From the NCBI GenBank assembly GCA_024760905.1, contig CM045729.1, positions 4,635,163-4,699,162 on the forward strand: a stretch of 64,000 nucleotides of DNA, read 5' to 3'. The stretch comes from Plotosus lineatus. Lineage: Eukaryota > Chordata > Actinopteri > Siluriformes > Plotosidae. Positions 2,860 through 58,978 of this stretch are shown here, in pieces (position 1 is the first letter of the stretch; each line of letters opens with the position of its first letter). The notes below the pieces were generated by a model that saw nothing but the letters and a program-made list of their open reading frames with translations, was not told the origin of the DNA and ran no database searches. Both the position numbers and the translations under genes were made by a program.

Positions 2860-4481
2860 CAGTGGTATGAAAAAGTATCTGAACCTTTTGGAATTTCTCA
2901 CATCTGTATAATATCACCATCAAATGTGATCTGATCTTTGTCAAAATCACACAGATGAAAAAACAGTGTCTGCTTTAACTAAAAACACCCAAACATTTAT
3001 AGGTTTTCATATTTTAATGAGGATGGCATGCAAACAATGACAGAAGGGGGAGGAATAAGTAACCGAACCATCACATTTAATATTTTGTGGCCCTTCCTTT
3101 AGCAGCAATAACTTCAACCTGTAACTTCCTGTAGCTGCAGATCAGTCTGGCACATCGATCAGGACTAATCTTGGCCCATCCTTCTTTACAAAACTGCTGT
3201 AGTTCAGTCAGATTCCTGGGATGTCTGGCATGAATCGCTGTCTTGAGGTCATGCCACAGCATCTCAATGGGGTTCAAGTCTGGACTTTGACTTGGCCACT
3301 CCAGAACGTGTATTTTGTTCTTCTGAAACCATTCTGAAGTTGATTTACTTCTGTGTTTTGGATCATTGTCTTGTTGCAGCATCCATCCTCTTTTTAGTTT
3401 CACCTGTCTGACAGACGGCCTCAGGTTTTCCTGCAAAACACCCCGATAAACGTGTGAATTCATTTTTCCATTAATGATTGCAAGTTGTCCAGGCCCCGAG
3501 GCAGCAAAACAGCCCCAAACCATGATGCACCCTCCACCATGCTTCACGGTGGGGATGAGGTGTTGATATTGGTGAGCTGTTCCATTTTTCCTCCACACAT
3601 GACGTTGTGTGTTCCTCCCAAACAATTCAACTTTGGTTTCATCAGTCCACAAAATATTTTGCCAAAACTTCTGTGGAGTGTCCAAGTGCCTTTTTGTGAA
3701 CATTAAATGAGCAACAATGTTTTTTTTTAGACAGCAGTAGCTTCCTCCTTGGAGTCCTCCGATGAACACCATTCTTGGCCATTGTTTTACATATAGTTGA
3801 TGTGTGCACAGAGATATTGGACTGTTCCAGTGATTTCTGTAAGTCTTTAGCAGACACTCTAGGGTTTTTTTTTTTTACCTCTCTGAGTATTCTGCGCTGA
3901 ACTCTTGGTGTCATCTTTGGTGGACGGCCACTCCTTGGGAGAAAAGCAACAGTGCCAAACTCTCTCCATTTGTAGACAACTTCTCTGACTGTCGATTGAT
4001 GAACATCCAGACTTTTAGAGATGGTTTTGTATCCTTTCCCAGATTTATACAAATCAACAATTCTTGATCGCAGGCCTTCAGACAGCTCTTTTGAGCGAGC
4101 CATGGTGCACATCAGACAATGCTTATCATCAAGACAATTCTTACCAGATGTATGTTTTATAGTGGGCAGGGCAGCTTTAAGTCACTCATCAGTGATTGGG
4201 CACACACCTGACTTAAATTGTTTGGTAAAAATTGGTTTCAATTGCCCTTTAAGTCTCCTTAGGCAGAGGGTTCAGTTACTTATTCCTCCCCCTTCTGTCA
4301 TTGTTTGCACACTATCCTCATTAAAATATGAAAACCTATAAATGTTTGGGTGGTTTTAGTTAAAGCAGACACTGTTTTTTCATCTGTGTGATTTTATTGA
4401 AAAATCAGATCACATTTGATGGTGATTTTATGCAGAAATGTGAGAAATTCCAAAACGTTCAGATACTTTTTCATATCACTG
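2860..4481 (-). mobile_element. Near-intact Tc1-like DNA transposon with ~205-bp inverted repeats
   Basis: The ends 'cagtggtatgaaaaagtatc' (2860) and the inverse of 'cagtgatatgaaaaagtatc' (ending 4481) are flanked by TA dinucleotides at 2858-2859 and 4482-4483, the Tc1/mariner target duplication. The inverted repeats run about 205 bp (2860-3068 and 4275-4481) and differ at only a few positions, so the copy looks young. The total of 1622 bp fits fish Tc1 elements. The single internal gene is on the minus strand. Confidence 0.93.
3077..4112 (-). pseudogene. Tc1 transposase, one frameshift
   Basis: The product would cut and paste the surrounding element in the nucleus. The N-terminal frame (4112-3642) has the paired-like helix-turn-helix region (SEGLRSRIVDLYKSGKGYKT, then HQSTVREVVYKW) and a basic linker with GRPPK. 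The C-terminal frame (3772-3077) has the DDE catalytic core: WTDETKVELFG (first Asp), LQQDNDPKHRSKS (second Asp) and SQSPDLNPIEMLWHDLK (Glu), ending at AAKGRATKY. The two frames overlap and switch at an A-run on the coding strand (around 3719-3728), so a single-base indel there is the visible lesion. All three catalytic acids remain. Without that indel the length would be the usual ~340 residues; as it stands the gene is inactive. Confidence 0.9.
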
Positions 4482-36289: not shown

Positions 36290-37712
36290 ACGTAACATTG
36301 AAAAATGCTCTCTCGGGGACTTCCTCGTTGTCCTGGAAGACTTCAATACGGATGTGGGCAAGGACACAGTGACCTGTAAGTGTGTGATCAGCAGGTACAG
36401 CCTCTCTAGTCTGAATGCACTTTTATTGTTGGACTTCTGTGCTTATCATGGTTTGTCCATCAGGAACACCTTGTTCGAACATAAGGGTGTTCATAAATCC
36501 ACTTGGCACCAAGAAACCCCATGCTGCAGTTTGATGATCAACTTTGTAGTCATGTTACTGGACTTAGAGCCACATGTTCCGAACACTCAGGTGAAGAGAG
36601 GAGCTGAGATGTAAACCAATCACCACCTAGTGGTGAGTTCACACCGATAGCTGACGAGTTTGTCCTCCAGATCAGGCAGGCCCAAGCGTGTAGTTAGGGT
36701 ATCTTGTGAATGTTTGGCAGAGTCTCCTGTTAGAGGAGGCCTTTAACTCCCACCTCTGGCAGAGCTACAACCATATCCTGAAGGAGGAGGGTGATACTGC
36801 ATCTGAATGGGCCATGTTTTGTACCTTCATTATTCAGATGGCAGCACATGGCTGTGGCCACGTCATCTGTGTCTGTAATGGCGATAATCCCTGAAAACCC
36901 GGTGGTGGACACCTGTAGTTAATAAGGCTGTCCAGCTGAGAAAGGAGGCCTATCCAGTCTTATTGGCCTGTGGGACTCCTGAGGCAGCAGACAGGTACCC
37001 GCAGGCCAAACATGTTTCAACCCAAGATGAGGAATGGAGGCCTGGAAAGCTACTATTGGTTGGCCTCCAAAAGGTTCTAGACCACCAACCAATGCATCAG
37101 AAAAGGGAAACATTCATTCATTCTCTAACCACTTAATCTTAATTATGGTTGTGGTGAAGCTGTCACCCATCCCAGCGGACTCCAGGCAAAGGCAGAGTAC
37201 ATCCTGGACAGCTTGCCAGGCCATCGCAGTGCGGAAACACGCTGACGGCTATGTAGCCTACTCTTGTTGAAAGTCATCAATGGTTCTTTTACCTGGCTCA
37301 CACTATAGACAATGAGACCCATGGCCGGCCTTTTATAACCATTAGCTTCACTAGGAAGACCGTGACAACCCGTGGAGAGTGGGGCTTGAACCCCCAACCA
37401 ATGCTTTTTTGGCTTAATCAATTCAGGACACCCAGCTCTCATTGGAGCTATTCTCAAATTGCGTGCAAAGCGGGAGGAGAATCAGCACCTCGCCATGTTT
37501 TTTTAGCTACCTGGTATGGTGTTTCAGGCATGTCCAACCAGCAAGGGAGCCCGAGGTCAACCCAGAACACGCTGGAGGGATTGTCTCCTGGCTGATCTGG
37601 GAAGGCCTCGCTATCCCCCTGGAAGAGCTGGAAGATGTGGCTGGGGGGGAGGGATATCTGGACCTCATTTCTTAGGCTGTCTGACCTGGCCGATGATTAT
37701 GACGATGACTTG
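36290..37712 (+). mobile_element. LINE family E remnant (APE endonuclease and 3' end), RT deleted
   Basis: 36290-37105 reads as decayed endonuclease and linker (VVLEDFNTDVGKDTVT, LLLDFCAYHGLSIRNT, STWHQET, then TASEWAMFCTF). 37408-37712 reads as the extreme C-terminus (VSGMSNQQGSPRSTQ in one frame, RGQPRTRWRDCLLADLGRP in another). The reverse transcriptase in between is missing, and an S1 SINE sits at the junction. The family is a common fish LINE; the clade is not assigned. Confidence 0.75.
37108..37400 (-). mobile_element. SINE family S1 inside LINE E remnant
   Basis: The minus-strand copy runs from its GAAT tail at 37108 to just past the B-box (plus 'gggcttgaacccccaacc' ending 37400). The first ~45 bp of the head are missing. 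Confidence 0.8.
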
Positions 37713-37773
37713 GAGGTATGCAGTGTACACAAACACATCACAATCTTTAACAAATGGTTCAGCATAGAATAAT

Positions 37774-37777
<4 letters not shown>

Positions 37778-37818
<41 letters not shown>
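37778..37818. repeat. (TA)n microsatellite
   Basis: About 20 TA units at the outer edge of the hammerhead-bearing inverted repeat. Confidence 0.95.
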
Positions 37819-37823
<5 letters not shown>

Positions 37824-37874
37824 CAAAACAAAAATAAAAGGACAGGACAAAGACTTTCTATTGAAACTCCATTT

Positions 37875-37929
37875 ATCACTACAGATCTGTTTCGAGGGGT
37901 GGTGAAACCAGCCTCTCTCTTCAGGTGAT
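37875..37929 (-). ncRNA. Hammerhead ribozyme (Penelope-like element type), minus strand
   Basis: Read on the minus strand: helix I strand AUCAC, core CUGAAGA (37924-37918), a long helix II beginning GAG and ending CUC, core GAAA, a two-pair helix III around the palindromic loop AGAUCU, the cleavage triplet GUA, then GUGAU closing helix I. Cleavage is predicted between 37880 and 37879. All invariant core bases (CUGANGA, GAAA, NUH) are present. The very short helix III with a self-complementary loop is the form described in Penelope-like elements and related retroelements. Confidence 0.82.
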
Positions 37930-37976
37930 TATAGAAGATGATATATATAGATATATATAGAAGTGATTCTTCTATA

Positions 37977-38031
37977 ATCACCTGAAGAGAGAGGCTGGTT
38001 TCACCACCCCTCGAAACAGATCTGTAGTGAT
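37977..38031 (+). ncRNA. Hammerhead ribozyme (Penelope-like element type), plus strand
   Basis: Helix I AUCAC (37977-37981) pairs with GUGAU (38027-38031). Core CUGAAGA is at 37982-37988 and GAAA at 38013-38016. Helix II is 37989-38012: GAGAGG with CCCCUC (one mismatch), then UGGU with ACCA around a UUC loop. Helix III is A38016-U38025 and C38017-G38024 around AGAUCU. The cleavage triplet GUA predicts cutting between 38026 and 38027. Identical in sequence to the minus-strand copy. Confidence 0.83.
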
Positions 38032-38138
38032 AAATGGAGTTTCAATAGAAAGTCTTTGTCCTGTCCTTTTATTTTTGTTTTATTTGCTCTACCAAAAAGT
38101 ATTGAGCACTCTCCTACGGAAGGATCTACTCAGAAAAT

Positions 38139-38142
<4 letters not shown>

Positions 38143-38222
<80 letters not shown>
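38143..38222. repeat. (TA)n microsatellite
   Basis: About 40 TA units between the hammerhead unit and the Tc1 element. Confidence 0.95.
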
Positions 38223-38226
<4 letters not shown>

Positions 38227-38230
38227 CATA

Positions 38231-39765
38231 CTAGTCCTTCTCAAAAAAATTAGCATATTGTGATAAAGTTCATTATTTTCTGTAATGTACTGAAAAAAAT
38301 TTAACTTTCATATATTTTAGATTCATTGCACACCAACTGAAATATTTCTGGTCTTTCATTGTTTTAATACTGATGATTTTGGCATACAGCTCATGAAAAC
38401 CCAAGCATATTTCATCCAACCAATAAAAAAGAGCTTTTAATACAAAAAACGTCAACCTTCAAATAATTATGTTGAATTCTGCACTCAATACTTGGTGGGG
38501 AATCCTTTTGCAGAAATGACTGCTTCAATGCGGCGTGGCATGGAGCCAATCAGCCTGTGGCACTGCTGAGGTGTTACGGAGGCCCAGGATGCTTCGATAG
38601 CGGCCTTAAGCTCATCCACAGTGTTGGGTCTGGTGTCTCTCAACTTTCTCTTCACAATATCCCACAGATTCTCTATGGGCTTCAGGTCAGGAGAGCTGGC
38701 AGGCCAATTGAGCCCAGTAATACCATGGTCAGTAAACCATTTAGCAGTGGTTTTGGCACTGTGAGCAGGTGCCAGGTCGTGCTGAAAAATGAAAATCTTC
38801 ATCTCCATAAAGCTTTTCAGCAGATGGAAGCATGAAGTGCTCCAAAATCTTCTGATAGCTAGCTGCATTGACCCCGCCCTTGATAAAACACAGTGGACCA
38901 ACACCAGCAGCTGACATGGAACCCCAGACCATCACTGACTGTGGGGACTTGACACTGGACTTCAGGCATTTTGGCATTTCCTTGTCCCCAGTCTTCCTCC
39001 AGGCTCTGGCACCTTGATTTCCGAATGACATGCAAAATTTGCTTTCATCTGAAAAAAGTAGTTTGGACCACTGAGCAACAGTCCAGTGCTGCTTCTCTGT
39101 AGCCCAGGTCAGCCGCTTCTGCCACTGTTTCTGGTTCAAAAGTGGCTTGACCTGGGGAATGCAGCACCTGTAGCCAATTTCCTGCACACGCCTGTGCACG
39201 GTGGCTCTGGATGTTTCTACTCCAGGCTCAGTCCACTGCTTCCACAGGTCTCCCAAGGTCTGGAATTGGCCCTTCTTTTACTTTTTCCTTCCCACAGACG
39301 TCCCACTGAGGTGCCTTGATACAGCACTCTGGGAACAGCCTATTCGCTCAGAGATTTCTTTCTGTATCTTACCCTCTTGCTTGAGGGTGTCGATGATGGT
39401 CTTCTGGACAGCAGTCAGGTCGGCAGTCTTACCCATGATTGCGGTTTTGAGTAATGAACCAGGCTGGGAGTTTTTAAAAGCCTCAGGAATCTTTTGCAGG
39501 TGTTTAGAGTTAATTGGTTGATTCAGATGATTAGGTTAATAGCTCATTTAGACTACCTGAACATCATATGCTAATTTTTTGAGATAGGAATTTTGGGTTT
39601 TCATGAGCTGTATGCCAAAATCATCAGTATTAAAACAATAAAAGACCAGAAATATTTCAGTTGGTGTGCAATGAATCTAAAATATATGAAAGTTTAATTT
39701 TTATCAGTACATTACAGAAACTAATGAACTTTATCACAATATGATAATTTTTTGAGAAGGACTAG
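38231..39765 (-). mobile_element. Second Tc1-like transposon, complete ends
   Basis: Ends 'ctagtccttctcaaaaaa' and its inverse, with TA at 38229-38230 and 39766-39767. Inverted repeats are about 170-180 bp (38231-38404 and 39597-39765). 1535 bp in total, with one transposase gene on the minus strand. It lies between the two inverted hammerhead pairs. A different family from the copy at 2860. Confidence 0.93.
38485..39436 (-). pseudogene. Tc1-like transposase, stop and frameshift
   Basis: The start at 39436 opens MGKTADLTAVQKTIIDTLKQ, the N-terminal helix-turn-helix region. A stop near 39278 (after GRKK) interrupts it. The middle frame (39256-38741) has RATVHRRVQEIGYRC and the first catalytic Asp in LLFSDESKFCMSFG. 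The last frame (38904-38485) has FQHDLAPAHSAKTTAKWF (second Asp) and SSPDLKPIENLWDIVKRKL (Glu), ending AKGFPTKY. The frame changes near 38785. Non-functional despite intact catalytic acids. Confidence 0.88.
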
Positions 39766-39886
39766 TATGATAGAGAGAGAGAGAGAGAATTTTCTGAGTA
39801 GATCCTTCCGTAAGAGAGTGCTAAATACTTTTTCGTAGAGTAAAAATAAAAGGACAGGACAAAGACTTTCTATTGAAACTTCATTT

Positions 39887-39939
39887 TCACTACAGATCTG
39901 TTTCGATGGGTGGTGAATCCATCCTCTCTCTTCAGGTGA
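39887..39939 (-). ncRNA. Hammerhead ribozyme, third copy
   Basis: On the minus strand: helix I UCAC/GUGA (4 bp), CUGAAGA (39935-39929), helix II with two internal mismatches, GAAAC, the loop AGAUCU, GUA. Predicted cleavage is between 39891 and 39890. The core is intact but helix II is weaker than in the first two copies. Confidence 0.72.
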
Positions 39940-40097
39940 TTACAGAAGAATGATTCTCTCTCCTTATGTGCTGAGGGCGATGCTATGCCAATAAACATGG
40001 CGTCCACTAGATGGCGTGATGTACATTGTGCATTGGGGGGCAGGTTCTCTTAAATATTGGTATTGATACATGCATATACATAAACTCATATATGTGC

Positions 40098-40150
40098 ATA
40101 TATCAAGAGAGAGGATACATTCACCACCCCTTGAAACAGATCTGTAGTGA
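40098..40150 (+). pseudogene. Hammerhead ribozyme remnant with broken core
   Basis: GAAAC, AGAUCU and GUA-GUGA are kept, but the CUGAAGA box reads AUCAAGA and the 5' strand of helix I no longer pairs. Loss of the invariant C3 and G5 should abolish cleavage. Confidence 0.75.
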
Positions 40151-40196
40151 AAATGAAGTTTCAATAGAAAGTCTTTGTCCTGTCCTTTTATTTTTA

Positions 40197-41384: not shown

Positions 41385-41600
41385 AACACGCTGACGGCTT
41401 TGCAGCCTACTCTTTACGAAAGTCAACAATGGTTCTTTTACATGCCTCACACCATAGACAGTGAGAGAAATGGCCCGCCTTTGATAACCCAGTTAGCCGC
41501 ACTGGGGGGGACAGTGGCCACCTTGTGGAGAGTGGGACTCGAACCCCCAACCTTTGGATCAGCGATCCAGCGCCCTATATCACTAGACCACCACTGCCCC
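41385..41600 (-). mobile_element. SINE family S1, tail-truncated
   Basis: Head complement 'actagaccaccactgcccc' ends at 41600, B-box complement 'gggactcgaaccc' is near 41543, and the body runs to 'gaaacacgctgacggc'. The shared 3' tail is missing. Confidence 0.8.
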
Positions 41601-47908: not shown

Positions 47909-50900
47909 TCATTCAGTAATATATTTTTCCAGGTTGTTCAGCAGTCCGTTTGCTATTTTTATTGCTTCTTCAGCATCTTTAGTTTTGAATTGCTCCTTTG
48001 GAATGTGGGGTCTCGGGTGGAAATTTGGGTATTGAGTTCTCTTAGCATCAACACCAAGCGCCTTCAGCTGATTCACAACATAAGGCACATCATGAAGGTG
48101 GGTAGCATACCGTGACACGTTCCAAGCAAGGCCTGTGATGGTTGATGCGGTGCCAGGATGCTTTCCATTCCTTCTGAACTCTGTGGCTATCAGAGCTTTT
48201 TCCACTGCCTGATGCACTTTAAACAGACACCACTCTGGACTTGGGTTATATGCAATGTCACTCTTCGCAGCAAGAAGATCACACTGTGCTTGTCTGTACC
48301 AGCGCTTAGCTTCCTCCCTGTTTGGTCTTGGAGTGTATTCAAAGTGTGACCAAAAATTGTACTGCCGTCTGAAATTGTTTTGATGGAATCGCTCCCGCCC
48401 CCTTTTGTGACTCCTTGCCTGGTAATTCCAGCTCTCATAGAAAGTGCTGAAATCTTCAGACCAATTTGATGTGCTTGATTCTGATGATGTGTTGTGTTTG
48501 GGCTTTCCTTTCTGTAGCTCTTCAATTCTGTTCTGCAAGTATTTAAATGCTTCAGTGGCAAGTTCTGTGTTGTCTGGGTTCTTGTCTGGATGCCATCTTA
48601 AATACAGGCGTTTAATGGCCTTTGATTTGTCCTCATTCGACATCTTCCAGATTTGTTCCAAGGTCTGGTCAATCTCTGCTTTAGCCTGCTCTAAAGTCTC
48701 GGGGAATGGCCTCTTTGGGTATTGTGCAGACTGTGGCGTTTCAGACTGTGTTGGTACAGATCCTGATGTTTCAGACTGTGTTGGTACAGATCCTGATGTT
48801 TCAGACTGTGTTGGTACAGATCCTGATGTTTCAGACTGTGTTGCAGTAGGTACAATATCACTGTCTGTGGAGATATTCCCAAATGAATCAGATCGTTTCT
48901 CTCTTCTGAACTGATAAAGATCAAGGGCGCTTACATCAATTATCCTTTCATCTTTAATTTGTATTCTGTATCTTGAGGGATATCTCCTCTGTCCTGGATG
49001 CTCATCCAGACACTCCACAACAATAGCAAAAACATATTTGTCCCCATCCTCACTGAAACCAACATATTCACCTTTCTCAAAACTATTGAAGAGGTCCATA
49101 TCAAGAGAATCATGCCATTCTTCTGGTATAGGAGTTCCAGGTCTGGGACGAGAACCAAATCCCTTTTCACCACTCGCAGTGTTACGGATTCCATGTTGTT
49201 CCAGGGCCTTTTCAACATCCTCCATGTTTTCACATAATAAAAGCTGACTGAGTACTTGTAGTCTTAATGAATTGAAGATGTTTTGCAGGAGAGCATTGAT
49301 TTCTTTGGTAAGATAAAGACTGACTTCATTCACCACTTTGTAAGCCATGTTGTCGCTGTGCTTCAGATAGAAAACACATTCATTTTGCTGCTTTTTGACA
49401 TAAACCTGAGTTTCTGTCTCAGTACCTTCTAGTGGCTGGTTATTTAACAAAAGTTCAGTGCATACAATTTTACAACAATCAATTTTAATTTTTTGAAATA
49501 TGCTTTCACGCATTTCTACAGCTTGAGTCTGTGAAATTGTGCCTTTGCTTTGGTCTCTGATCAGACATATTAGGCCATGACTGAACTCAGGAGAGGACAA
49601 TCGTGCTTGAAACCAGCCACTGAATTCACAGGATGCTCCATAATCACAGTGTTCTACACGTGCAGCAACCAAATTTACAGAAATAACTTGAGTGAGCATT
49701 TTGGGACGAATGTGTTCAGGAAGCAGCTGCAACAGTTTCTGATGTTCATAGGGGTCTTCTTGCAGACGGCACTCGCTTAGTTTTACAAGTAGCTTCAGTT
49801 TTGTTTTTAGAGACGCCTCCAGTCTGTATGCCTGAAAGAAGGTGTCATTGAAAAACAATGTGTGGGACTCGTGGAGTTTTCCATCTGTTGATGGCAGATA
49901 TAGAATGTTTTGAAACTGAGGTACTTTTTCTTCATCTTTTATCAGACAGAAAAGTTGCTGCACAACACGTTGAACAGTTGTCAGCTGGTTTGGGTGAAGT
50001 GTTTCCTTGCCACAGCTCTCTGTATAGATTTCTGCAAGCACAGTGCACAATTGTGTGACGGTAGGATTTTCTTCAACACCGATCTTCTTGAAGAATTCTG
50101 CATACACTGCTTGTTTTGATTGTATGGGGTAGAGGTATGGCCGAAACTCATGAGCATCAGTTAAGGTCAAGACAGCCTGAGTAGCTTTCACGAGATTTTT
50201 GTCATTTTCAACAAGAATAAGAGGGACATCAGCCAACAAAGCCTCATTAAACTTTACAGATTGAAGGTAGCCATATGAGGTCTTGAACACCGTTGCTCTC
50301 GTGTTTATCAGTTGTTCTGTTCTGCATGGAGACCCACAAATATTTCTTAGGTTCTGCATGACCTGCTCTGAGGGAGGTTCATCCAAGGCTCCAGCATTCC
50401 TCAGAGTATTTAGGTCACTTGGAGTGAAGTCCCTTGAGGGCAGTATTGGCATAGAAGTCCATATGAGATACTGATGGTCAAGTTGTTTTTCAAGCAGTGA
50501 TCCTTTGATGGCAACCACATCCCTCTCTTGGGCAAATGATCTGTGATAATTGCACAGTTTTTGATCAATCTTCACAGGCAGTATAAACTTTATGGTTGCA
50601 AGATTTTGCATCAATTTAGAGTTTTGCATAGTGCCTAATTTAAGTGCATTTCTAAGCAATACTGAAGATCTAGTTTGAAGAACGTGCAGCTCAATGGTAC
50701 AGTTTGCATTTGACTCCATTCCATAAGCGAATGAAAGCACCTCCTGTTCAGATACAGTATGTTTTAGTCCTAGCTCACAGAGAAAAGATTTCACTCCTTC
50801 AGCATTGTTAAAATTTTCAAAAAAAGTCTTTGGAACAAATCTCTCCTTTGGAAGCATAACTTTATACAGCTTAACAGATTCATCATAGAAGTACGAAGGA

Positions 50901-53900
50901 ACCTGGAGACAGCCATTGATATCATGAATAAATGGGACAGCTGTCAAAGTTCGGATAATACTGGATTTCAAGTCGTTATACTTTGTTCTAGGTCTTTGTC
51001 TCAGTTCCACTAGCAGCCTTATTAAATCAAGAAGCTTTGTCTGGTTAAGCTTATGTACAGACGGAATTATGAATCGCACACAGTACTCCAAGTCACCCAT
51101 AATCGTAATGTTCATACATGTTGATAGTCCTTTATTTAAATCATTGTATGCAAGGAAAATGCAGTCGCTGTGATCGAATCTGTACAAGCCTGGAAATATT
51201 TCCTGAAACTCAGAATTCAGGATGAATACATTACTGTGCGAATCAATCCTTTGGCGATTTCCACATATGGTCTGAAATAACGGTAAGGACGTAAAAAGCC
51301 TTTGGTCATTTGTGTTTTTGGAATGAATGATGCCAGATTGGAGGAAACGTTGAAGAGCATCACTTTCATTACCAGAAAGGTTCTCAAACTGTGAATGTGG
51401 AATTCTGCCCAACTCCTTCAGAACAGCACTGCTGTCATTTGCCTTCAACAGTTCTGGCTGTACAAATCTGTACAAAAGATTATAAAGTTCAAGAAAGAAA
51501 CTGCGGTCTAATATCAAGAATCCGAGTTTAATGAGAATGGCAGAAATGGGTTCTTTGGGATCCTGAACAACACTGGAAAGATTTCCTATTTGTTCTAGTA
51601 AGCATGTTTCCTTTTGACCTGGATAAATGACCGGCAAAATGGGACTTCCAGAGAAGTGTTGCTTTACTTCAGCAAAGACCGTATTTGTCTCTCCACCTTG
51701 GAAATCCTTCGGGTTGACTTCATGTTCAAAAAATTTCCACAGTTCCTTCAGCCATTTTTTAATTTCAGTTCCTACTATATTCAACCCATTTGATTCATGG
51801 AGTGTTGAATGACAAAGCTTGTATTGAAGAACTGGCTCAATAAACTTTGCTGCCAATGGAATGGTCAATTTCTGAATATATTTTCCCCTCTGGAGAATCG
51901 ATTCATGTCTAAAATTAATCTGATAATCAACAAACTCTGACTTGTGCTCTTGAAAAATGTCATAAAATTGTGAGATAAGCTTTGGAGAATGGGAGCTAAA
52001 TTTCCTCAACATCTGATCTTGGGTGAGGAGGAGAGGTAGATCATTTAGGTCAATTGATTGAGAGTTTTTATTAACATTTGGGGCGAAGAGCGAAAATGTT
52101 TTCTCAGCACTCAAGCAAAATCTCAAGAGCTTTGAACAACTTTGTGCATTTGTAATTAAGGTCTGGTTGATAGGCAATGGTAAATCATCAGTACTTTGTA
52201 AAGGATCGTTCATTCTTTTCTTCTTCAAATAACTGACCACTGAAGAAGGACTCACTGCAGCCACATGCACACCTGCAGTTTTAAAACCCTCATGAGCCTT
52301 TTTGATTTTCCATGAATGTGGCACCAAGTTCATTCCAATGTGTGCTAAAACCTGGACAATGTTATCGTGGCTCTCACTTGTGAAATGAGGTGCATCTGTT
52401 GGATCTGGCTTTGAAACACTCAACCACTTAAATGTGTACTTTGGACCAGTGTGAGCTTTAGAATCATCTGTAATACGAAGAATTGGTATCACAGAGAGGT
52501 TTCGCTGATTGATTGATTTGTAGACTCGACTAATCATGTTATGCCAAACTTGCAAAACATCCTTTGACACAAAGGGAAAAAACTTGAAGCAAAAGTTCAG
52601 GTGTGATTTGAGATGCTCTAAAATTTTAGGTTCACCCTTTTTAAATGTTGTACAGATGTGTTCCAGAAGGTCGGCATACAGAGGGGCGATGATCTCCAGC
52701 TGAAGAAACTGATTCCATTTTGTCTTTGCACTGTCATCATCTTCTTTCCACACATCCCTTCTAGAATGATCCACTTCAAAGTTTCCATTCACATGGACAG
52801 GGAGACCAGTGAAATTTGGCAATGGCAGAGAACAAAAAGCTCTTCCACAAAAGTTTTGTTGTGCAGGTTTTGCTCCTACACAAGCTGCCACGCCTGCCTG
52901 GGGTACTTCGCTGTGGGATTCACTTTCTTGGTTTTGCAAAAAGGATCCATATTGATCTGCAATAATCCAGGAGCTTTGTTTAATTCCTGATTTAACATGA
53001 ACTTTATAGATAGCTTTGGCTGGAATTACTTTCCCAGATTTAAGGGAATTGCAAACATCATTCTGGAATCTTTCCCTTTGCTCCATGGTGTCCTTGGTGA
53101 CTGTTTTCTCAATCATGAAGTCATTGACTTCAGATCCATCCTTGGTGATCTCACGGAAGTGGATTCTTGTGATGTGCTTCAAGAACAGAATCAGTTCCTC
53201 TGGATATGCTTTTAATACCTGGAACAGTTCTGTAATTTCAGATTCTCGAACTGGATTTATAGATATTTCTGATTTGGCTGCCATTTCTTTTGTTCTGAGA
53301 GGAAGTCTGAAAATTGTTCCTGAATGAAGAGGAAACTTTTCAGGGAGAAATGTATTATAAACATCCTGGAAAAACTTTTTAAAATCTTCATTGATTGAAT
53401 ACATGCAGCCTGGTGACTCCTTGGTTCCAGTTTCCACATATTTCAGGTTTGGATCAGATATGCACAGATATTCATCACCAGATATGATGGATGGGCAGTC
53501 AGTCAGATGGTAAACAGAATTAAAACCAAGACCATATTTTCCAGTTCTTCCCAAAGTGCCACGTTTTCCTCCTTCCCCTAATTGCTGAATACCCATCAGG
53601 TCTTCATTTGAGAATTTCTTGTTGTTGAACACACAAAGTGCTGGGCCTTGAAGCACCTCCCAATTTTCTCCAAATATCTTTTTAGTTCCATGCTTCCGTT
53701 TGTCCCAAACAAAATGAATTTCGGTTGCTTCTGCATCATCAGCATTCTGAAGGAGCTCTTTCAGAATATCTTTCTTGGCTGGATAGGCTTCCATTATGTT
53801 TTTTATCCGAACAGTTAGTTTTTCATGTTGTCCAAACTCCTTAGCAAATGGTGAAAACTTTTTAATTAGAGCTTCATCAAGAGTATGATGTCTCATTGTT

Positions 53901-56900
53901 ACTACTCCAAAACTGAGTGCAACCTCTCGAGATATCAGTTTATGGCAGAATGCTACCCCGGCTTGTACTGGCATCCAAGGACTGTCATTAAATTTCAATT
54001 TGCTTGAGTCTGTCAACACACCTTGTTCATCAGGCATAAGACACTCTGTAACCATTTGAGGTGAAACTCCATACAACCCTTTTGTAATTATGGCAATGCA
54101 GATGTGAAGATCTCTGCTTGAGATTGGGCTTGAGAATTTACTGATTTCTTCAAGAACAGCAATAAATTGCTTTGCTGCAAACTGTTTGGTCATGCCAACA
54201 CAGCTCCAGAGATTCTCAAATTTGGAAAAGATGGTGGGAAGAACATAGAGGTAAGGCTTTTCCTCAAATTCACCACCCAAGGCAACTGATTGCACATGTA
54301 CAAAGTGATTGTCAACTAAAATAAATGGGATCGATTGAGCATGGTTAATAATAGCAGTGGGATCACCATCATTCAACAGATATTTGCTGAGGTAGTCATA
54401 ACCGCTTTTGGCAATGTCAAAAAGTTCAGAAGCTTCAAATGATTTGGAACGGTTGTGGACTTCTTTGAGTTGTCTGAGTACTGTCTCAACTGGTGGGTTA
54501 CTTATCACCCCCAATTTTATGAGAACTGGGTCATCTGGCTTTAAACCAAGCTTTACATGATCAACAGTGAATTCTGTCAGGTTTACCAAGTGGTAGCACT
54601 GGTACTCATAGACTTCACATGGCTTTTTAAGTACGGTTGTCTTTTCATTGTGCTGATTGATACCAAGAGCAGGAAGAAATGGTATATGTTTTAGAGTTTC
54701 CCAGTGCAAAGAATCAACACGTGAAAACCTTTTCATTGAGTCAAAGAGACACTGAAGATGTTTGTATGCTTTATCTTTGTTTTTAGACCAAATTTGAGAG
54801 ATTGTCTTTGTTCTTTCTAGAATTTCATCAAATGTGAGTACATCAGACAACATTCCCAAGCTTGACAATCGACAAATCCTCTTGGGAGAGAAGTAGTCAT
54901 TTTTGGTACCGCCAAGAAATCGTCCCTCCTCTGGCTCATACAAGCATGCGACCTTACCATTTGGGTTCACTAGTTTGTTGGTGAATTGAAGTGGTCCTGC
55001 TTTCTGTGTTGGAATGCATGCATGACTTTTCAGTAGGTTGTCAACTGCATGGTCATTCAAGTCTATGGAATTCAATATAAGGGCATCCCTGCAGTGTGAA
55101 TCCATTTTGTTCAAGTTTTTGAACACTACTTGATAAAACTCAAGCCATTCAAATGTTCTCTCCTTGACCATCTCACTGAAGCCACACTGCATTAAATTAT
55201 TTCTTGCCCAGGTTGGCAAAGGAACAGCACAGTAGTTTGGTTCTGTATATTTCAGGAACACGTCCATGGCGAGTTTTCCAACTGCCTCATTGTTTTGAAT
55301 ACTTGGGTCAAGAAATCTTGCTTTGTCAAATGAGCACCAGGCTTTTCCATTATTTAAGAGCTCAAGGGATTTAACATTTGAGCTTTGAACAATGGCTGAG
55401 TAAAAAGACATCACCAAAGGTTGAACTCCTTTCTTTACCTCTTTAATATCGGGCCAGAATGTGTAGTAATCATAGTTTTGTAGATTTCCGTTTTGGGATA
55501 ATTTCTTCAGCTCAAGCAGTGCAGTAATGTAGGCTGTAGCAACTGCATCTTGGAGTAATGCTTTGTTCCATTCCAGTTTGGTACCAGTTTCCCACAGAGC
55601 CTTCCTGTTTGATGTGACTGCAAAAGATCCATTGATGTGAACTGGGAGTCCGGTATCAATTGGAAGCGGAAGAAAACAAAACGCCTGGCCATTTGTACAT
55701 CTATCATCTGCTGACCAAGTATTGTCTGATTCTTTCTGTAGAGGCACAGCAACTCCTCCAATCGGTAAAGAAAATTTGCATTGATGCAGTTCATTCTGAA
55801 ACATTCTTAGTGAGTCTTTTGTCCCAAAACATGAATACAGGAGCCAGTACTGGGAGTTACTTCTCTCAGGATCCTCACAAACTATTTCCACAATGTTTGC
55901 TACAAAGCAGTCAACAATCTCATGGCAGTTTGGGTCAAGGATTTTCAGAGTTTTTTTAATGTCCTGTAGATGTGTTTCATTTGAAATGTTAATTGAGCAT
56001 AGTCCTTCCTGAGAGATTTTCATGACCGTTTCAATTGGTCCTTGATTAAAGATTTGAAGAGTCAGAGACTTTATGTGCTTGAGAAATAATAGTAGAGTTG
56101 CAGAATTGTCTGTGAAAATTTGGTGAAATTCATGTATGTGCTCTTTGTCATAGACTTTGGAGCTAATTTCTGACTTGCACGCCTCATCTGATGTGCGAAA
56201 TGGGAGCTTAATCAGAGTGCCATTGTAATATTTTTGGTTGCTGTTTGAAAAATCACAATCAAAAATTCCCTGATAGGATTTGAACTGTCCAGGGAATCTC
56301 CTAAATAGTCGCTCATGAAACAAATCAAGTTTAATTCCAGGAACTGTTCTACTTTTTACGTGTTTTTCCAAGTGTGTTACATTTGGATCAAGAATGAGAA
56401 GTTTTTGTCCACTCAAAATAGATGGAATATCTGTCACATGGTAAACAGCATTGAAACCCAGTCCAAATTTTCCAATTTTCTCAAATTTGGTTTCTTTTGA
56501 TGCAGCTCCAACTCTAACAATATTGTCCCAGTCCTCCTCTGAGAACAGCTCATTGTTGTAAGCCCAAAGACACGGACCATTGCATAGAGCCATACCATCA
56601 TCAATAAGCCCTTCAGAAGGGTGTGTTCTGAAGTCCAGCATAAAACCGCAGGTACTCGCACGAGCATCTTCTGCATTTTGTACGAGTTCTTTAAAAATGT
56701 CACTTTCATCATCATATTCCTTGAGTATGTTTTTGATTCTCTGAGTGATTGGCTCTGTTTGACCACACTGCTCAATTCCCTCATACACTTCCTCAACACC
56801 AAGGAACAGTGGTTTTAAAATCCGGGTACTTAAGAAGGGAATTTTCAGCCATCTTGCAGTGATAGGAAGAACCTCCTCATGGATGACATAGAACTCCTCC

Positions 56901-58896
56901 TTATCTTGCTTTAGATCATCTAAGCCTTCCTCACTGATATCACAAAAAACAGTATCCTTCAAAGATCGTAGGGTGAAATTTTGATTTTGTAGCTTGACTG
57001 GCACTGGTGTACTGCCCTTTAAAGACTTTTCATTTTTCCTCATCCAGTCAAGGATTGATGTTGAGACTTTAAGTTCAGAAGGCTCTCCATAAGGTGGTGT
57101 TCTGTCATCAATGTTTTCTTTTATATCAAAGAGTATGGTTTCTATTTCTTCATCACCAAGAGTTTCCTTTACTCCACACACTCTGAGCAAGTCATCATAC
57201 TGCAAAAATTCCTCCGGCACTCTTTTGATGTAAAGGCTCAGATCCAGTTCACTTGGAAAGTTGAGCACAACTTCCCGAGGTGACACAAACTCTGTCTGGC
57301 ACCAAAGCCAAGGAATACATTTGTTGTTCAACTCCTGTCTGAATTGTTCAATGTTTTCTTGCATGAATTTGTATGTGCTGTGCAGCTTGTTTTTGAAATT
57401 GTAATCTGAATCTGGGCTGACCATGGTTGAAGATAATGATATCAGCACACACAGGTTCTCCAAAACCTTTTCAGCTGGAGGAGGACTATAGAGGTCAAGT
57501 TTTTGACAGACATTCTCATTGAGGTCTGAAGTAAGTGGCATGACATGGCCCACAATTGCAGAATATTTTGAGGCCCTTATTTCGGTTGGTTTGTATAATG
57601 ATGTCTTCTGGTTGTTTTTACTTTGAATTGAATTTGGCTTTTCACAAGGAACCCACTGTAATTGGAGAAGCTCTTGTCTCTCCCTCTCAGAGAATTTTGA
57701 GAGCAAATCCTTTCTGTTCAATACTCTTACCAAAACATGAGCTTTTTTAAAAGCCCTGTTTCTTGAGTGGATGTGAAGCTGTTGAATTTGTGAGGCAACA
57801 TGAAGTATATTTGCCGAGGATATTTGTTCTTCTTTAGTCTGTAAACCAAGTTGTTCCAAGCTTTGTAGAATCTTTGGTGATCTATAAGCTTCCTGTGGAA
57901 AAAAGTCTTCTTCAAAAAGATCAAGGAAGGTCTTCTTGGTGGGATCAAAAACACTTGAGGGCCTTTTGCGTTCACTTTGTGCTGTCAGAATGAAACTGAG
58001 ATTCTTGCTTTTTGTCAACAATTCTTCACTTTGGGAGAAAAGAATTTGCCCATGATTCAGTATCCAGGTTATTATTTTTTGCTCATCCTCTTTGGTGAAT
58101 AACATTCTATCAATGTATTCTACCAAGTAGATGGCTAATTGAGCAGGATCTACAAGCTTGACCTTTAAGAGATTCAAAAGTCTGCGATCTGCTTCATTTG
58201 CGCACTGGACTATGGTGTCAGGCACAGGGAGATCCTTTGGAATGGCTGGGGTGGACCTTAAAATAATTGCTTGTTTCGACTCAATGGTGACATATTGTTC
58301 AGACATCAATCTGAAAATGGGCAGAGCTGACAGCAGACCTTTTTCTGCATCAGAAAGACTATCTAGAGAAGAAATATAGGTTTTAAACTCTTCCTTTTCA
58401 TGAATTGAAACAGAGGCTAAGCCACTGACAACCCTGTCTGTGTTCAAGTTCAAAAGGACTTGCATGACATTTCTTGGTGATGGTGTTAGGACATAATGTT
58501 CTATGCCATAATGCTTTAGACAGTCATCTTTTTTAATGACTGTTCCACCGACTGACTTTAGCACCTTTTGAATTTGATCTGACAAGGTGGACTCCCTGCT
58601 GTTCTGGAAAATCAAAGTGGATTTTTCTTCCAGTCTTGCTAACATTATAATGCTGCCCACATTTTGCAGTGGTTCAAGAGGTATTAACGGCATTCCAATG
58701 AATTGCATCAGGTCTGTCCAGTGAGTACTTAGAAACTTCCAGAATTCTTTCAGCCATGTCTTTGGTGGATGGTCATCTTTAGCAGAATTCCATTTCACAT
58801 GACCTTTTGTCTCTCTCCAGTCTCTTGGTAAATGTTCCTTGGCTAATGTAGCAACACTGTTTGCATCCAAATTAATCAGGTGATACAGTTTTGAAT
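47909..58896 (-). CDS. Sacsin-like protein, giant terminal coding exon
   Basis: One open frame of about 3660 codons. The true exon begins at 58896: TTTGTTCTTCTTTATTATAG directly precedes it, a strong acceptor, so the in-frame Met at 58921 is intron and not a start. Entry is phase 1. Residues below count from 58921. The first ~700 residues match the latter part of a sacsin repeat (KTWLKEFWKFLSTHW). Second repeat: HSP90-like ATPase boxes KELVQNAEDA (~744) and GKFGLGFNAVYH (~818). Third repeat: KELLQNADDAEAT (~1721) and GKYGLGFNSVYH (~1795). A 10-residue tandem repeat follows at ~3360-3394, then a J domain with HPD at 3444-3446 and a HEPN domain at ~3535-3665. Human sacsin also has a ~11.5-kb single coding exon; it is a chaperone-linked protein of the cytoskeleton and mitochondria. 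This copy may be a teleost paralogue. Ubl and first ATPase exons must lie beyond the window. No stop or frameshift, so it is under selection. Confidence 0.95.
48739..48843 (-). repeat. 30-bp coding minisatellite in the sacsin-like gene
   Basis: About 3.4 tandem copies of a 30-bp unit encode TQSETSGSVP repeats. The copies are identical, so they are recent or homogenised. They sit in the linker before the J domain and keep frame. Confidence 0.93.
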
Positions 58897-58978
58897 CTAT
58901 AATAAAGAAGAACAAATACATAATTATGAATAGAATTTTCTTTTAGTTCATCTCTCATGAGTATAATTTCTGAAAGCA

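Follow-up and report, generated by a model that had tools for sequence, protein, structure and literature searches.

Head-to-head Penelope-like pseudo-LTRs carrying a hammerhead motif in Plotosus lineatus, with genomic copies that start at the predicted cleavage site

Introduction

What kind of element carries the complete hammerhead motif found in the DNA of the catfish Plotosus lineatus, and has the ribozyme left any trace of activity in the genome? These questions are raised by positions 37977-38031(+) of a stretch of 64,000 nucleotides (nt) (assembly GCA_024760905.1, contig CM045729.1, positions 4,635,163 to 4,699,162, forward strand), which is called the window below. A first-pass annotation of the window had offered two alternatives for this site, a stripped Penelope terminal repeat or a separate ribozyme-only retroelement. 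That Penelope elements carry hammerheads is long established. The minimal type I form in Penelope-like elements (PLEs) is reportedly the subject of Cervera & de la Pena 2014 and Lunse 2017. In a 2020 review, the in vivo activity and role of PLE hammerheads are called still a mystery (PMC7761336). Hammerhead-bearing PLE pseudo-long terminal repeats (pseudo-LTRs) are thus familiar objects; what is new here are copies that start at the predicted cut, a possible footprint of ribozyme activity. A scan of titles and abstract openings that did not cover the two main PLE-hammerhead papers returned no report of insertions with an end at the cleavage site of a PLE hammerhead, which is weak evidence of novelty.

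Results

The focal site is very probably a pseudo-LTR-only, head-to-head insertion of a GIY-YIG PLE, in which a 173-nt unit represents the 5' leader of the element's RNA. We take the unit for a PLE leader and pseudo-LTR because it stands 3' of the endonuclease frame in 18 of 20 loci and 5' of the open reading frame (ORF) in locus L060. These results come from searches of the animal's own 1.33-Gb assembly (30 contigs). A DNA search gave 58 matches (40 of 237 candidates scored), and 20 loci of ten kb (L009-L028) and 19 short ones were examined. L028 holds the end of a frame that we took for the GIY-YIG C-terminus of a PLE, and its 63 residues used as a query gave 150 matches in the genome (150 of 386 candidates scored). 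Among the best 20 endonuclease-matching loci, 19 contain the unit and 18 have it downstream on the same strand, at a distance of roughly 265-450 nt in 17 loci and about 880 nt in L056; L059 has the unit solely on the opposite strand and L066 is without it. The unit in these PLE loci is 94.8-100% identical. The leader of L060 consists of unit positions 48-173, then 51 nt, then the ORF start ATG GAA AAG TTC AAC ATT.

The protein of the autonomous relatives was followed in L054 and L063, whose 563-amino-acid (aa) frames continue past the 5' end of each locus. Both frames align to proteins of about 705 aa. L054 shares 76-78% identity with two of these, P0001 and P0004 (705 aa each), and contains YRDDGLA and ETYIGLTENTFKTRYRNH, which we take to be PLE protein motifs; of 7997 scored candidates, 3461 proteins matched it at E<=0.001. 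A 116-residue N-terminal query gave 62 genome matches (70 of 70 candidates scored). Judged by homologues and motifs, L054 and L063 are assigned to the PLEs, and a PLE ORF with reverse transcriptase (RT) and GIY-YIG endonuclease is found in these relatives but not in the window copy.

The other alternative was a separate, non-autonomous, retrozyme-like element that consists of the ribozyme unit only and amplifies itself via circular RNA. Many copies are indeed the unit alone, with a recurrent 5' end. This reading is largely refuted by the autonomous PLE loci, in which the unit is the terminal repeat, and we consider it very unlikely. Most copies stand alone or in head-to-head pairs, and same-strand neighbouring units were seen only in L020, L023, L028, L050 and L056; a metazoan retrozyme would instead consist of short repeats in head-to-tail order, every one with a canonical type I hammerhead. 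The copies also end at two internal sites of the leader. Of the two alternatives in the first-pass annotation, the stripped Penelope terminal repeat therefore stands and the ribozyme-only retroelement does not.

The hammerhead itself was read directly from the 55 nt of the focal site. All core bases are present, and the CUGANGA/GAAA/NUH core with its three helices makes a complete minimal type I hammerhead. Helix I is paired at 5 of 5 positions, and helix III consists of A38016-U38025, C38017-G38024 and A38018-U38023 closed by the loop GAUC. Completeness of the core, perfect closure of helix I (AUCAC/GUGAU) and the minimal Penelope type had all been claimed in the first-pass annotation, and each of them holds. 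A descriptor applied to both strands (CTGANGA, GAAA and UH, with 5 pairs in helix I, 3 in helix II and 2 plus A-U in helix III) found 2 matches in the window, 37977-38031(+) and its mirror 37875-37929(-), versus 1 when the whole window was dinucleotide-shuffled 300 times. The core string CTGANGA...GAAA...UH-GTGAT is kept in 82 of 92 examined copies, a count in which helices are unscored and two arms appear in duplicate (L057/L062); of the ten failures, that of L028 at 4888 is due solely to the end of the extracted piece.

Two results would fit a chance look-alike without any ribozyme history. Rfam, to which the first-pass annotation had looked for confirmation, gave no hammerhead model match, neither at the gathering score nor at E<=10, and this speaks against the ribozyme name. 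At a permissive threshold the region 37700-38200 gave 29 matches, all below gathering, none of them a hammerhead and mostly microRNA precursors that fit the inverted repeat; the sole gathering-level Rfam match in the window is a tRNA. The hammerhead models may be silent because helix III is nearly absent. In the minimum free energy fold of 37965-38045 (z -1.8), helices I and II form but the core CUG pairs with CAG, so the catalytic fold is not revealed by simple folding. A look-alike is nevertheless extremely improbable in view of the shuffled windows, the retention of the core string and the location in a PLE pseudo-LTR, a known home of such ribozymes (PMC7761336). We keep the name hammerhead because of the core and the family context.

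The focal ribozyme is one arm of a head-to-head pair, formed by a perfect 114-nt inverted repeat (37825-37938 / 37968-38081). The first-pass annotation had described neither this repeat, nor the tail of about 57 nt on the plus arm only, nor the (TA)n on both outer sides (Table 1). The window contains a second, older pair, 39789-39951(-)/40105-40195(+), which is 91-93% identical to the unit and whose minus arm runs on into sequence that resembles, by eye, the PLE 3' untranslated region (UTR) of L028 and L060. It had been noted that no RT or GIY-YIG frame lies nearby; this is correct for frames in the window (tblastn with a full PLE protein, best E 1.4), but the older pair does bring PLE 3' UTR-like sequence close to the site.

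Table 1. Features of the focal insertion, its hammerhead and the older pair (window coordinates)
Feature	Positions	Strand	Basis
Hammerhead, plus arm; predicted cleavage between 38026 and 38027	37977..38031	+	core read, descriptor scan
Helix I 5' strand AUCAC	37977-37981	+	read from sequence
Core CUGAAGA	37982-37988	+	read from sequence
Helix II	37989-38012	+	read from sequence
Core GAAA	38013-38016	+	read from sequence
CA-GAUC-UG	38017-38024	+	read from sequence
UA, predicted cut directly after	38025-38026	+	read from sequence
Helix I 3' strand GUGAU	38027-38031	+	read from sequence
Second hammerhead, letter-identical, minus arm; predicted cleavage between 37880 and 37879 on minus strand	37875..37929	-	inverted repeat, descriptor scan
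PLE pseudo-LTR plus arm, unit positions 1-173, with tail	37965..38139	+	comparison with unit copies
Tail, extension to distal 3' end (AGAAAATC), plus arm only	38082..38139	+	comparison with unit copies
PLE pseudo-LTR minus arm, unit positions 4-115, without tail	37827..37938	-	comparison with unit copies
Inter-arm spacer, TA-rich, holds piece resembling 5' palindrome (TATAGAAG)	37939..37964	.	sequence read
(TA)n, left outer flank, target	37777..37818	.	sequence read
(TA)n, right outer flank, target	38141..38230	.	sequence read
Older pseudo-LTR arm with tail, 91% identical, preceded by PLE 3' UTR-like sequence	39789..39951	-	alignment; 3' UTR likeness by eye
Partner arm of older pair, unit positions 21-112, without tail, then (TA)35	40105..40195	+	alignment

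The arrangement at the focal site recurs in the loci examined, where unit copies lie mostly in (TA)n. They share a recurrent 5' end near TTCTTCTATAATC, often preceded by the palindromic TATAGAAGAT, and their 3' ends fall into two classes, at unit position 105-119 or at 171-173, the latter being the PLE tail. All 27 examined head-to-head pairs with arms within 1 kb combine one tail arm with one tail-less arm; 26 of them come from L009-L047 and the focal site taken together, and the last is the older pair in the window. The wider pairs L053, L057 (the same place as L062) and L067 also follow the tail/no-tail rule. Arms may start late: the tail arm begins only at unit position 103-105 in L027, L043 and L047, and the tail-less arm of the second window pair at position 21. 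The spacers in L041, L017 and L046 are patchworks of short repeated pieces, e.g. attctatattctata, and look as if made by repeated template slippage. L025 and L026 have an identical spacer letter for letter (reverse complement) with outer flanks that do not match; they may go back to a single insertion that was duplicated, or to the copying of a whole pair at once, and possibly represent a single event.

We also considered variants shared by both arms as proof of self-priming. A31C, where present (4 pairs), is in both arms and never in one alone, and C38T is in both arms of L017. Unshared changes between the arms occur in 15 of 23 compared pairs, so the shared variants are suggestive and do not decide between one and two templates.

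Several observations weigh against the assignment to a GIY-YIG PLE or restrict how it is read. The 5' leader is visible in one locus only, L060, whose unit is cut at position 48. No Pfam family was found on the L054 and L063 frames, RVT_1 appeared on 1 of 5 scanned homologues and below the Pfam cut-off, and neither the endonuclease fragment nor the longer frame had a match in Pfam or PDB. The absence of PLE protein from the window counts here too, and among the ten-kb loci L009-L028 it is present in L028 only. Because similarity to a sequence containing the 5' end guided the choice of copies, shorter ones are under-sampled. L056, with three arms, and L060 are not classifiable as pairs. Because the targets are (TA)n, target-site duplications cannot show.

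Did the ribozyme cut RNA that was later copied into the genome? Genomic junctions bear on self-cleavage indirectly. The cut site lies between unit positions 62 and 63, and copies that begin there were counted as exact genome-wide matches to eight A/T followed by GTGATAAATGGAGTTTCAATAGAAAG (W8+GTGATAAATGGAGTTTCAATAGAAAG), a pattern that spans three junction positions (0, -1 and -2). It has 61 matches; the reversed pattern has 0. Control patterns gave 8 matches at -3/-4 (4.0 per position), 13 at -5 to -7 (4.3 per position), 17 at -10 to -13 (4.25 per position) and 13 at +1/+2 (6.5 per position). The +3 control, eight A/T before ATAAATGG, gave 14 matches and at most 14 per position, some further positions being inseparable. 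The cleavage site thus has 20.3 matches per position vs 4.6 in the pooled first four controls, or 5.4 with the 14 of the +3 control added at one position. The 61 copies at the cut site, compared with 8-17 at five neighbouring sites, suggest that cleaved RNA templated insertions in vivo.

The same junctions could be 5' truncations, favoured by TA microhomology or by a stop of the enzyme at a folded helix. Truncated copies are present at every other site tested, and 33 of the 61 junctions end in TA and 8 in AA, a last base that agrees with the element's own A. The remaining 20 carry T ahead of GTGAT in place of the element's own A, as against 2 non-own last bases in 38 matches of three upstream controls (Fisher p 0.001), and TA microhomology does not explain those 20. 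An enzyme halted by folded helix I would be expected to stop with GUGAU still uncopied. Moreover, three head-to-head pairs (C1:122.30 Mb, C6:20.42 Mb and C24:8.09 Mb) have both arms starting from GTGAT and non-palindromic spacers; the control pair at C8:59.46 Mb, in contrast, forms a palindrome of the kind expected from snap-back copying.

Three points argue against a cleavage footprint. One is that TTTATTTA precedes 6 of the 61 junctions, so the junctions need not all be independent. Another is that the junction figures are absolute counts, not fractions of all unit copies. The third is the control W8+GGAGTT, whose 131 matches over 7 possible positions make 18.7 per position, at face value near the 20.3 of the cut site. 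Among the 100 of these matches listed, 62 are single-letter variants of the TGATAAAT that belongs to the element itself (43 TAATAAAT and 19 TTATAAAT, counted by hand) and none has a non-own last base. We discounted this control and did not pool it, because of these 62 near-own sequences and because only 14 matches pass the ATAAATGG test; its count is mostly not truncation. Taken together, we regard truncation as a possible but less favoured source of the GTGAT-starting copies, and lean towards the view that the genome records in vivo hammerhead activity, as tens of insertions copied from ribozyme-cut RNA (GUA / GUGAU), pairs with both arms included.

Discussion

The leader has, in this order, a recurrent 5' end near TTCTTCTATAATC, the hammerhead and two putative internal reverse-transcription start sites (about 115, and 173 for the tail). 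By analogy with the Anolis PLE, the endonuclease would cut both strands of AT-rich DNA. Complementary DNA (cDNA) synthesis on the leader would then be primed by each target end, from one or the other start site, and the two cDNAs would extend to the RNA 5' end before being joined head to head. Joining via short palindromes and TA homology could leave the patchwork spacer. Templates already cleaved by their hammerhead would give copies that start at GTGAT. A single-unit RNA would yield pseudo-LTR copies only, and full-length copies would require RNA read through tandem units. The tail/no-tail rule holds in the examined pairs; the enzymology proposed for it is modelled on the Anolis enzyme.

The closest comparison is the Poseidon PLE of Anolis carolinensis (PAc), studied biochemically in 2024 (PMC11167929). 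Its protein cuts both strands of AT-rich DNA and makes cDNA from two internal RNA sites (PMC11167929). As in PAc, the unit described here has a minimal hammerhead at the border of pseudo-LTR and ORF, two internal start sites that give a tail, and AT-rich targets; cutting of both strands is known in PAc, whereas here AT-rich flanks are what is seen. The layouts differ. The PAc ORF starts in stem II and the cut is 26 bp inside the ORF, while here, as visible in L060 only, the ATG follows the cut by 162 nt and the distal start site by 51 nt. In PAc the start site did not differ between the two strands (PMC11167929), and a strict one-of-each per insertion is therefore not predicted by that study. 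The PAc hammerhead cut only with protein added, hammerhead mutants were without effect on insertion in vitro, and its authors found no RNA-seq reads that begin or end at the cleavage site (PMC11167929), in contrast to the genomic copies that start at the cut here.

Penelope families of Adineta vaga (PMC3846280) are described with inverted pseudo-LTRs, head-to-head palindromes, a 5' palindrome in some pseudo-LTRs, a tail on one of two inverted pseudo-LTRs, and solo pseudo-LTRs, all of which resemble the present unit; here the unit stops short of the ORF, with a tail of about 57 nt. By sequence comparison the unit also resembles the minimal type I hammerheads of PLEs, which are located in pseudo-LTRs, open at helix I and nearly without helix III (PMC7761336).

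Other features of the window were recorded as well. The tRNA-family Rfam match is at 41524-41597(-) (30.6 bits), and similar sequence adjoins a unit copy in L023; from this likeness it is probably the head of a tRNA-derived short interspersed element. Frames that look by eye like Tc1/mariner transposases lie at 3077-4181(-) and 38741-39277(-). A single 3677-aa open frame occupies 47909-58942(-) and includes a 30-bp tandem repeat at 48738-48843; we take this frame, by eye, to be sacsin-like.

The start sites of reverse transcription lie only about 45-110 nt beyond the cut. If the cleavage-footprint reading is true, cleaved RNA can therefore give only short dead copies, and cleavage would limit, not help, full-length retrotransposition from tandem RNA. 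The tail/no-tail rule also narrows down the ways in which the element could use the two target strands. Looking for an excess of insertion 5' ends at the cut is a test of in vivo cleavage that needs genome sequence alone and can be repeated in any PLE-rich genome.
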